From the NCBI GenBank assembly GCA_037481875.1, contig JBBFKY010000003.1, forward strand, positions 1-55,134: 55,134 nucleotides of DNA. The letters run 5' to 3'. Made by a program: the position numbers and the translations under genes. Each line of letters opens with the position of its first letter. Within the stretch, counting starts at the first letter, position 1. Source of the stretch: Desulfosoma sp. Its GTDB lineage: Bacteria > Desulfobacterota > Syntrophobacteria > Syntrophobacterales > DSM-9756. The notes under the pieces are model-generated. The model searched no databases. It worked only from the letters and a program-made list of their open reading frames with translations, and was not told the DNA's origin. Shown here in pieces: positions 15,090 to 18,201 of the stretch.

Positions 15090-15296
15090 ATCGTGAAAGG
15101 GAGAAGGGCTGTCGATTTCGGTTCGCCAGAACACGCCGACGCCTGAATGCCGTTTAACAAATCCGTGGAATCTCGGCTTGACAAAGGTGACGAAACCATG
15201 CTAGCAGGCTTTTGACGCGTTTCGGTAACGGTCCCGCTTTCGTGCAAGGGCTGTGCGGAGGGAAACGAGGGATATATGCAAGCAGGACGAGCCATA
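15090..15296. other. Spacer and putative promoter region upstream of the trp leader peptide
   Basis: No protein gene seen. A possible promoter is TTGACA (15178-15183), 18 nt, TAGCAG (15202-15207), which would start transcription about 80 nt before the leader peptide ATG. The -10 match is poor, so this promoter is tentative. Confidence 0.35.
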
Positions 15297-15335
15297 ATGC
15301 GCGTATGGTCATGGTGGTGGCAGGCCTGGACGTGA
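15297..15335 (+). CDS. trpL: trp leader peptide (five Trp codons)
   Basis: ATG CGC GTA TGG TCA TGG TGG TGG CAG GCC TGG ACG TGA encodes MRVWSWWWQAWT: five tryptophans in twelve residues, with three in a row. AGGA lies 9 nt upstream of the ATG. Trp is encoded by a single rare codon, so this density is far beyond chance. Together with the alternative hairpins downstream and the trpB-type gene, it marks a ribosome-mediated transcription attenuator. The peptide itself probably has no function beyond sensing charged tRNA-Trp. Confidence 0.88.
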   Translation: MRVWSWWWQAWT

Positions 15336-15447
15336 GCCTGCCCACCGAAGATCTTTGACGTTGCCTAAGATCGCGAGCCGTGGGTGAGGCTCTCTCCCCA
15401 TGGCTCTTTTTGTGCAGCAAAACGGCCGTGGGGTGAACCTCATGGCC
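15314..15447 (+). promoter_or_regulatory. Tryptophan attenuator: mutually exclusive RNA helices
   Basis: Six segments pair with their neighbours. A 15316-15325 (in the Trp codons) pairs with B 15336-15346 (10 bp, one bulge). B also pairs with C 15380-15390 (4+5 bp). C (15375-15384, GAGCCGTGGG) pairs with D 15397-15406 (10 bp). D (15396-15404, CCCCATGGC) pairs with E 15425-15433 (9 bp) plus an inner TTTTG/CAAAA stem. E pairs with F as the terminator. A ribosome stalled on Trp codons masks A, frees B to take C, lets D take E and so prevents termination. Completed or absent translation leads to C:D and E:F, giving termination. The sequence shows the pairings; the switching is inferred from known trp operons. 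Confidence 0.82.
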
Positions 15448-15453
15448 TTTTTT
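15424..15453 (+). terminator. Intrinsic terminator of the trp attenuator
   Basis: GGCCGTGGGG (15424-15433), TGAA tetraloop, CCTCATGGCC (15438-15447), then six T residues (15448-15453). The 10-bp stem has only two G-U wobbles. It ends 40 bp before the trpB start, so it must be bypassed for expression. Confidence 0.85.
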
Positions 15454-15493: not shown

Positions 15494-16855
15494 ATGGAAC
15501 AGATCAAGGTGTTTTTGGATGAAAGTGAGATGCCTCGGCAATGGTACAACATTCAGGCGGATCTCCCCACACCCCTTCGCCCGCCGTTGCATCCCGCCAC
15601 GGGACAGCCTATCAAGCCGGAAGATTTGGCACCCGTTTTTCCCATGAACCTCATTGAACAGGAAGTATCCACGGAGCGTTGGATTCCCATTCCGGAACCG
15701 GTTCTGGAAAAGTACGCTCTGTGGCGTCCCACGCCTCTGTACCGCGCTCGAGGTTTGGAAAAGGCTTTGGGAACGCCGGCCAAAATCTACTACAAGAACG
15801 AAGGAGTGAGCCCGCCCGGTTCCCACAAGCCCAACACGGCTGTGGCCCAAGCCTATTACAACAAAGTTTTTGGTATCAAAAGACTGTCCACGGAAACCGG
15901 AGCCGGCCAATGGGGCAGTGCTCTGAGCATGGCATGCCAGATGTTCGGGTTGCAATGCCGTGTGTTCATGGTCAAGGTGAGCTACAATCAGAAACCGTAT
16001 CGGCGTAGCATGATGGAAACCTGGGGTGCCGAATGCATTCCCAGCCCCAGTGACCGCACTCAAGCCGGGCGAAAAATTTTAGCCCAAAACCCCGATTCTC
16101 CAGGAAGCCTCGGCATCGCCATCAGTGAAGCGATCGAAGATGCCGTGGGAGACCCCGAAGCTCGTTACTCTTTGGGCAGCGTGCTGAACCATGTGCTTCT
16201 GCATCAGACCATCATTGGTTTGGAGGCCCAAAAGCAACTGGAAAAACTCGGTGTGTATCCCGACGTTGTTATGGGATGCGCCGGCGGCGGCAGCAACTTT
16301 GCAGGACTGTGCCTGCCTTTTGTACGGGATAAAATTCACGGCAAGAACGTGACCATCGTGGCCGCCGAACCCACCAGTTGCCCGACCCTCACCAAAGGCC
16401 CCTTCCGATACGATTTCGGTGATACCGCCATGACAACCCCCCTTCTGGCCATGCACACGCTGGGACACGATTTTGTGCCGGCTCCAATTCATGCCGGAGG
16501 GCTGCGGTATCACGGCATGGCTCCTATCGTGAGCCATCTGTTGGAAGAAAAACTTATTGAAGCGCGAGCCTTTGACCAACTGGAAACCTTCACCGCAGGT
16601 GTGCAGTGGGCTCGCGCCGAAGGGTTCATACCGGCTCCGGAAACCAATCATGCCATCGCCGCCGTGGTGCAGGAAGCTTTGCGCGCCAAGGAAGAAGGCA
16701 AAGAAAAGGTCATCCTTTTTAACTGGAGCGGCCACGGATACGTGGACATGGCCGCCTACGATGCTTTCCTCTCGGGGAAACTCACGCGCTACGAACTTCC
16801 GGAAGAAGAGATTCGGAGAGCTTTGGCATCCACCGAGGCTTTTCCCAAACCGTGA
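15494..16855 (+). CDS. trpB: Tryptophan synthase beta chain, TrpB2 type
   Basis: PLP enzyme of the TrpB2/TrpB-like group, joining indole and L-serine to tryptophan, often without a TrpA partner. The start [10 protein letters not shown] follows AAGGAGG. PLP lysine K112 lies in [20 protein letters not shown]. Other motifs are [15 protein letters not shown], the phosphate-binding [12 protein letters not shown] and a C-terminal [12 protein letters not shown]. The extended N-terminus with [33 protein letters not shown] and the 453-residue length separate it from TrpB1 (about 400). No trpA is nearby. The Trp-codon attenuator upstream supports a true tryptophan-biosynthetic role rather than another PLP reaction. 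Confidence 0.94.
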
Positions 16856-16880: not shown

Positions 16881-17189
16881 ATGAACGCTCAGGACATCCT
16901 GGCACGAATGGACGCGTTGGAAACCCGGTGCCCCAAGCTGGGGCACCAAGTCACCTTTGAGTACTGCCGACAGGAATCCTTGAAAAGGCCTTGTTCCAGA
17001 GCCCTTGTGTGCTGGAACCATCGGCTTCCAGTGGAAATGATTTTGAAAAAACTTGTTGGAGAAGAAACCTACGAAGCGGTTTTTGGAGGACCACCCAAGA
17101 GCCGCGTGGAGAGCCTCATGGAAGCCATTGAATCCGCCAAGCAAAGGTGCAACGCCGGCGGTTCGGGGCCTCGTGAGGCCCCGTCATGA
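16881..17189 (+). CDS. Small cysteine-motif protein, function unknown
   Basis: A 102-residue protein starting 25 bp after trpB with AGGA about 9 nt before its ATG. It contains C17-PKLGHQVTFEY-C29, eight residues, C38, five residues, C44-W. This C-x11-C-x8-C-x5-C pattern could bind zinc or an iron-sulfur centre. A helical C-terminal half follows (PVEMILKKLVGEETYEAVFG). I recall similar short Cys proteins in sulfate-reducing bacteria but cannot name a function. Placement suggests co-transcription with trpB and the downstream outer-membrane protein gene. Confidence 0.65.
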   Translation: MNAQDILARMDALETRCPKLGHQVTFEYCRQESLKRPCSRALVCWNHRLPVEMILKKLVGEETYEAVFGGPPKSRVESLMEAIESAKQRCNAGGSGPREAPS

Positions 17190-17220: not shown

Positions 17221-18201
17221 ATGCGCAGAAAACACTTTCTGACCAAAAAGGCACTAACCGTGTCGATCTGTTTCATGTGCTGGATCGGCACTATGGCACC
17301 CGCTTCCTCTTTTGCTTACGATCTTCCTCCCGTCAACCTGGGTTTCACCAGTTTTCTGGACGGCGGCCCTCCTGCCGGCCCTGGCTTTTATTTCACGCAA
17401 TACCTGCAATATTGGAGGTCTGAGACCTTTCGCGACAAGAACGGCGATCGCCTGTTTCCCAGCATGGTTAATGAAGACTTGAGTGTGTGGATCAGCCTCA
17501 CACAGTTCATCTATCAGAGCAATCAGCCCATTCTTTTAGGCGGCAAATGGGGTGTCGATGTCATTCTTCCCTACGTGTCCCCCGACCTGGATTATGCCAT
17601 CAGCGCTCCACTACCCCAGGCCAACAGCTCGGGCTTTGGAGACCTGCTTATCGGCCCTTTTCTGCAATGGGATCCCATTATGGGCCAGGCAGGACCACGA
17701 TTTATGCATCGTGTTGAATTTCAAATGATTTTTCCCACGGGAAAATACGATGCCAACCGGGAAATCAATCCGGGAAGTAATTTCTTTAGTTTCAATCCCT
17801 ACTGGGCCGGCACCTTGTTTCTAACGCCGCGCTGGACGGTCAGCACCAGGATTCATTATTTGTGGAACGCCAAAAACACCGATCCGAATCGAGCCTTTGG
17901 CGACGCCGACGATACGCAGGCTGGGCAGGCCGTGCACCTGAATTTCGCTTCCGCCTACGAGATCCTTGCTCAAAAGATGCGCCTGGGCCTTAACGGCTAT
18001 TACCTTAAACAAATCACGGACACTCAGGTGGACGGTAGGGACCTGAAGGGCCGCAAAGAACAAGTTTTTGCTTTAGGACCAGGGTTTGTGCTGCATTTTT
18101 CCAAAGACACACATTTTTTCTTTAACCTGTATTTTGAAACGGCTGCGGAGAATCGACCCGAAGGGGAAAGGCTCAATTTCCGTATCGTCCATCATTTTTA
18201 A
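17221..18201 (+). CDS. Outer-membrane beta-barrel protein, phenol-degradation MetA-like family
   Basis: 326 residues with a signal peptide (basic MRRKHFLTKK, hydrophobic core, cleavage probably near residue 32 after SSFA). Alternating beta-strand segments rich in aromatic residues end in the F-R-I-V-H-H-F C-terminus, with the terminal Phe typical of outer-membrane barrels. The pattern GGKWGVDVILPYVSPDL, HRVEFQMIFPTGKYDANREINPGSNFFSFNPYWAGTLFLTPRWTVSTRIHYLWN matches the transporter-like family annotated as MetA pathway of phenol degradation. The substrate is unknown. GAGGAG precedes the start. Confidence 0.85.
   Translation: MRRKHFLTKKALTVSICFMCWIGTMAPASSFAYDLPPVNLGFTSFLDGGPPAGPGFYFTQYLQYWRSETFRDKNGDRLFPSMVNEDLSVWISLTQFIYQSNQPILLGGKWGVDVILPYVSPDLDYAISAPLPQANSSGFGDLLIGPFLQWDPIMGQAGPRFMHRVEFQMIFPTGKYDANREINPGSNFFSFNPYWAGTLFLTPRWTVSTRIHYLWNAKNTDPNRAFGDADDTQAGQAVHLNFASAYEILAQKMRLGLNGYYLKQITDTQVDGRDLKGRKEQVFALGPGFVLHFSKDTHFFFNLYFETAAENRPEGERLNFRIVHHF

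Follow-up and report, generated by a model that had tools for sequence, protein, structure and literature searches.

A tryptophan-codon leader with competing RNA hairpins, probably a six-segment attenuator, precedes a stand-alone trpB2 gene in Desulfosoma

The window, a stretch of 55,134 nucleotides from a Desulfosoma sp. contig to which all positions below refer unless another contig is named, carries a trpB2 gene in the following setting.

ends 15089, + strand: cysQ, upstream of trpB2
15494..16855, + strand: trpB2, encoding a TrpB-like PLP enzyme of 453 aa (TIGR01415, NF009057; best PDB match 6hul)
16881..17189, + strand: gene for a 102-aa Cys-containing protein, a conserved trpB2 neighbor
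17221..18201, + strand: gene for a PF13557 (Phenol_MetA_deg) outer-membrane-type protein, possibly cotranscribed with trpB2

The trpB2 product scores 665.9 bits with TIGR01415 (cutoff 518.85) and 758 bits with NF009057 (cutoff 366), and reaches 149.6 bits with the classical trpB model, below its cutoff of 392. One classical trpB1 (627.8 bits) is found in the genome (assembly 99.6% complete), where it sits on another contig in aroF-trpEGDCFB1A, trpA included, the members of which were identified by NCBIfam with some falling slightly under the curated cutoffs. The preliminary description of this DNA had presented trpB2 as a gene without trpA, and this holds locally, with trpB1 and trpA present elsewhere in the genome in a full trp operon. 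Throughout the order, 39 of 39 genomes have a TrpB-family match and most have both TrpB types. The 102-aa protein, for which no Pfam match was found, occurs in one copy in nearly all matching genomes and adjoins trpB2 in most listed cases; with its Cys pattern it is a candidate for an uncharacterized TrpB2 partner. The PF13557 protein is encoded 3′ of trpB2 in many relatives and may import indole or aromatics, and a reasonable guess for the neighborhood is uptake of indole or aromatics followed by tryptophan synthesis. A search with PF01212 for tryptophanase returned weak matches only (best 33.9 bits). We infer that TrpB2 makes tryptophan in this organism, through indole use or as extra capacity.

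Between cysQ and trpB2 lie a leader ORF and a series of complementary segments, listed here with the evidence for each.

15178..15183, + strand: TTGACA, a possible promoter −35 element, from the sequence
15276..15335, + strand: leader ORF in its likely full form, MQAGRAIMRVWSWWWQAWT, 19 residues, from the in-frame ATG 15276
15297-15335, + strand: leader ORF as first described (ATG 15297, TGA 15335), encoding MRVWSWWWQAWT
15312..15320, + strand: run of three TGG codons that probably act as control codons (WWW kept in relatives; constrained folding)
15313..15325, + strand: segment A, GGTGGTGGCAGGC, overlapping the control codons (A:B covariation)
15336..15346, + strand: segment B, GCCTGCCCACC, starting right behind the leader stop codon (folding, covariation)
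15375..15390, + strand: segment C, GAGCCGTGGGTGAGGC (folding, covariation)
15396..15406, + strand: segment D, CCCCATGGCTC (folding, covariation)
15407..15411, + strand: TTTTT 3′ of hairpin C:D, a possible first terminator (sequence; T-runs compared in relatives)
15424..15433, + strand: segment E, GGCCGTGGGG (folding, covariation)
15438..15447, + strand: segment F, CCTCATGGCC (folding, covariation)
15424..15453, + strand: intrinsic terminator E:F, 10 bp, followed by TTTTTT (15448-15453)

The short ORF with five TGG codons that had been reported is present (codons 4, 6, 7, 8 and 11, the peptide ending ...VWSWWWQAWT), and can be extended to the upstream ATG. GAGGG stands immediately 5′ of ATG 15276, and the leaders of two same-genus genomes are about 23 residues long with a C-terminal WSWWWQAW; on both counts 15276 is a plausible true start, and translation may thus begin 21 nt upstream of the ATG first proposed. 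Dinucleotide shuffling of the intergenic region produced a short ORF with at least five Trp codons in 6 of 1500 cases and a WWW run in 1 of 1500. No good −10 partner was found for the TTGACA element and a consensus scan yielded no full sigma-70 site, and the promoter of the leader is here presumed.

Downstream of the control codons the segments can be combined into two sets of helices, namely A:B, C:D and E:F, the last of which is the terminator, and B:C and D:E, which would form the antiterminator. The leader region has a folding z-score of −3.49, with none of 200 shuffles equally stable. The terminator is as had been reported, a 10-bp hairpin with six T residues, the last of them 40 nt ahead of the trpB2 ATG at 15494. 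The T-run behind C:D had been overlooked, and judged from the sequence the leader may comprise two terminators in series, C:D with its own TTTTT and E:F.

Trp leaders with a WWW run occur 5′ of trpB2 in all of the family's 7 other genomes and, beyond it, in many Desulfobacterota, among them other families of the order, Syntrophales and unclassified Deltaproteobacteria MAGs, examples being YWWWQVEFEPAH (L102), NWWWQILTVCP (L012), VWWWRTKTVCLL (L006) and CWWWRVHRDLST (L009). The leader is not universal: of the 30 regions 5′ of trpB2 that were inspected in the order, 13 have a WWW run, a count that may be low or high given the strand reorientation of loci. For covariation, 20 relatives with two hairpins were aligned as ungapped A-F blocks, the choice of which was guided by structure and so favors pairing. 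Across these divergent sequences all five helices hold, with compensatory changes, and WWW runs are kept in relatives, as would be expected if the preliminary description were right. The helices A:B, C:D and E:F are paired in 93.3% of cells, with 13 pairs double-changed against a shuffle mean of 7.6 and 36 double-change cells against 13.5 in shuffles, whereas shuffles of the alternative set, B:C and D:E (90.0% paired), give 6.5 double-change cells against the 17 observed; shifting the partner by one base in this set lowers pairing to below 47%. The matched D:E duplex has an energy of −15.5 against −8.0 for shuffled sequences. At column 26-34 of B:C, 14 sequences have C-G and 4 have U-A, and column 51-73 of D:E is UA in 8, CG in 7, UG in 4 and another combination in 1, the U-A pair belonging to Syntrophales and L041, C-G to the family of the window, and U-G to L102-L104 and L009. 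As these changes follow clades, they represent few events and not twenty.

These data also bear on the view that the hairpins are ordinary terminators of cysQ, as its position upstream on the same strand would allow, and that the Trp-rich ORF arose by chance. The leader and its hairpins persist in relatives that have no cysQ upstream, which is the case for most beyond the closest ones, the rarity of a WWW leader among shuffles and the covariation of B:C and D:E argue against coincidence, and the same element is also found 5′ of trp operons. We regard this explanation as extremely improbable.

The region combines what is looked for in an attenuator: from the sequence alone, a short, presumably translated leader ORF in which codons for the regulated amino acid stand in a row; control codons in segment A, with which the TGG run at 15312-15320 overlaps, and a stop codon (15333-15335) that borders segment B at 15336, so that a ribosome there covers B; an intrinsic terminator ahead of the structural gene, found in the 20 aligned relatives as well; and a mutually exclusive antiterminator with compensatory changes. 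At a probability of about 0.9, we read the leader as a ribosome-mediated transcription attenuator that would sense charged tRNA-Trp and control trpB2, probably together with the genes for the 102-aa and PF13557 proteins. Trp-codon-dependent attenuation by way of competing helices A:B to E:F, the core of the initial proposal, is thereby supported from three sides, conservation, covariation and constrained folding. In the switch that we infer, ribosome stalling and transcriptional read-through would be coupled as follows. When tryptophan is scarce, the ribosome would stall on the TGG triplet at 15312-15320 and cover A, upon which B:C would form, D would be left free and D:E would form in turn, blocking E:F (and C:D with its T5) and allowing transcription of trpB2. 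When tryptophan is plentiful, the ribosome would reach the stop codon beside B and cover B, and C:D would form; C:D possibly terminates by itself, and with E left for F transcription would stop ahead of trpB2.

Constrained folding, in which ribosome-covered bases were masked (an assumed 11 nt past the A-site codon) and either helix set was penalized, gave a difference between stalled and completed translation of the expected sign. With the ribosome stalled on WWW, the B:C path is favored by 10.3 kcal/mol before D emerges, C:D is slightly favored over B:C (0.5-4.7) with D out but not E, and after E has emerged the preference goes to the antiterminator, by 9-11 kcal/mol, with little difference left between the two states in the finished RNA. 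When the ribosome sits on the stop codon, there is a preference of 14.5 for C:D before E emerges, the D:E antiterminator is briefly favored by 3-5 kcal/mol before F emerges, and the terminator is favored by 7.9 in the finished RNA. It follows from the transient preference for D:E that C:D must persist, or terminate first, for the proposed switch to work. A stall at the last TGG (15327) behaves like finished translation, whereas a WWW stall leads to the antiterminator. For the full-length RNA, the equilibrium fold is C:D plus E:F in every case, even with a stalled ribosome. Since the terminator fold always wins at equilibrium, and since C:D is slightly favored in the stalled state before E appears, the switch would have to be a kinetic one.

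The part played by C:D is the point at which another arrangement has to be weighed, in which two attenuators stand in series, C:D being the true terminator of a four-segment A-D unit, E:F a duplicated backup, and D:E a mere byproduct of hairpin likeness. The TTTTT that follows C:D in the window fits this arrangement, as do L093, L106, L107 and L109, in which termination is left to a single C:D-like hairpin bearing a T-run and the attenuator has four segments. The arms of C:D and E:F are, moreover, alike, D:E energies computed across loci come close to the matched ones in strength, and D:E complementarity could, on this sequence comparison, partly be a byproduct of the likeness of C:D and E:F. 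Speaking against it, Syntrophales and L102-L104 keep C:D, D:E and E:F although their C:D has no useful T-run and E:F is the sole terminator, and the D:E pair 51-73 changes in a compensatory manner although its 5′ base, column 51, has no standard partner in C:D. We hold the serial arrangement to be a serious contender, if somewhat the less probable one. The relay function initially assigned to C:D is accordingly not clearly its only one, relatives ranging from C:D as sole terminator to C:D as a relay with no T-run; with T-runs behind both hairpins in the window, C:D may, judged from the sequence, be either a relay or a first terminator here.

A covariance model trained on trpB2 leaders only was then searched against the same genome, in which it picked out the leaders listed below.

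C7:68739-68891 (L084/L188): Trp leader (WWCWWW; ...FWWCWWWCVVHG...) with tandem hairpins, 5′ of aroF-trpEGDCFBA, 53.7 bits
C3:359636-359755, − strand (L179/L189): Tyr-rich leader ...RRYDYYGYGYLRRSARR with two hairpins, 5′ of a Peripla_BP_6/LivH-like ABC transporter operon
C1:555936-556077 (L180/L190): Phe-codon leader MKRFFRFGFIGGDGGFFFRKSAHGRAG with two hairpins, 5′ of paaK (phenylacetate-CoA ligase)
C2:85182-85304, − strand (L192): mixed aromatic leader ...GFYFYYGWYQG... with two hairpins, 5′ of a second DAHP synthase gene
C3:92527 (L191): Leu-rich leader with a single terminator hairpin, 5′ of leuA
C3:227998 (L194): Phe/Tyr-codon leader with a single terminator hairpin, 5′ of the gene for 3-dehydroquinate synthase II

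The matches of the paaK and DAHP synthase leaders are weak (28-31 bits), and their assignment is based mainly on leader peptides and target genes. The paaK leader suggests that phenylalanine supply from phenylacetate is under Phe attenuation. Among the relatives, G017 has a similar Tyr leader, YSYYYYAY (L186), G003 has a leader similar to that of the DAHP synthase gene (L185), and G034 has a Trp leader, FWWCWWWQ, 5′ of the indolepyruvate ferredoxin oxidoreductase gene iorA (C9:64409-64512, L183). Matches of the pattern TGGTGGTGGCRGG at C3:280598 and C6:199154 were set aside as, by their look, parts of coding sequence and not leaders; model matches scoring less than about 25 bits, which frequently occurred on both strands, resemble generic palindromic terminators. 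Throughout the phylum, aromatic leaders show two hairpins whose D and E arms are complementary, the 14 scored averaging −17.8 against −7.8 for shuffled sequences, and much of this complementarity reflects shared core sequence, as the cross-locus mean is −15.9.

With these leaders at hand, a terminator controlled by a protein or small molecule in the manner of a riboswitch, with the leader ORF incidental, can be considered. Such control would suit a leader as highly structured as this one, and a "trpB motif" of Firmicutes and Fusobacteria has been proposed as a riboswitch candidate (PMC11109978). The in-frame Trp run is nevertheless kept in divergent lineages, where it overlaps A with the stop codon at B, and leaders of other target genes have Phe or Tyr codons in the control position. 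A search of the window against Rfam found no match for the leader, with tRNAs only at gathering score and three subthreshold matches, none of them to a leader family (Trp_leader, His_leader, others). Riboswitch-like control is, in our estimation, highly improbable here. Starting from the attenuator reading, we lean toward the wider proposal that in Desulfobacterota one tandem-hairpin, six-segment platform, recoded with codons for Trp, Phe or Tyr or with a mixture of aromatic ones, runs the whole supply of aromatic amino acids, covering both their synthesis (aroF-trp, DAHP synthase) and their acquisition or salvage (trpB2 together with the outer-membrane-type protein, paaK/ior, the Liv-type transporter), the first hairpin switching between terminator and relay in the course of evolution.

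As to TrpB2 itself, work on Thermotoga and Sulfolobus has discussed and assayed this enzyme as a beta chain of tryptophan synthase, and found the alternative activity, that of a serine deaminase, to be poor (PMC1854888). The link between TrpB2 and tryptophan synthesis claimed at the outset is therefore reinforced here and not made for the first time. The leader suggests, as far as sequence can, that the spare enzyme TrpB2 serves tryptophan supply, and would provide comparative-genomic evidence that a stand-alone TrpB2, whose role as serine deaminase or tryptophan synthase has been debated, comes into use under a shortage of Trp-tRNA.

No earlier trpB2 attenuator in Desulfobacterota was found in the literature, for the most part freely accessible papers. 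The closest described elements differ from the present one in several respects. In Corynebacterium diphtheriae a trpB2A attenuator has been predicted (PMC1262725), in an operon with trpA, unlike the stand-alone trpB2 here. The accessible text on Geobacter (PMC2700814) lists, under tryptophan, a conserved sequence 5′ of iorAB-paaK, which resembles the present leader in being deltaproteobacterial, upstream and connected to Trp metabolism (compare the Trp leader 5′ of iorA in G034); it differs in that trpB2 lies within the trp operon and in that this text describes no leader peptide or alternative hairpins for the element. The trpB motif (SRC-39-1) likewise has two hairpins, of which the second is the terminator, and occasionally lies 5′ of trpB; as far as the accessible text goes it is a riboswitch candidate of other phyla, with no Trp-codon leader reported. 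With the classical trp attenuators (E. coli trpL, Corynebacterium/Streptomyces) the trpB2 leader shares a Trp-codon leader, a terminator before a Trp gene and the stalling logic, and their four-segment form also occurs among its relatives (L093, L106, L107, L109). It differs from them by two added segments and a second hairpin, and by having trpB2 alone as its target, not trpE.

The mechanism is already known, and so is the six-segment principle, from the his operon attenuator of Salmonella and E. coli, in which A:B, C:D and E:F terminate and B:C and D:E antiterminate (PMC4046918; PMC10989985). The two extra segments, first presented as a departure from the classical design, are one among the trp leaders compared, where the six-segment form is a novelty so far as the search reached, and are not one in general. 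Both leaders have a run of control codons in the leader peptide and the same A-F layout; the trpB2 leader differs in its Trp instead of His codons, its target and the T-run after C:D, and the Rfam search recognized no sequence relation between the two. It works like a his-type six-segment attenuator without belonging to the his leader family. The his-type layout is found again among the trp leaders of a different phylum, and the homologous leader set lets the evolution of four- versus six-segment switches be followed and tested.
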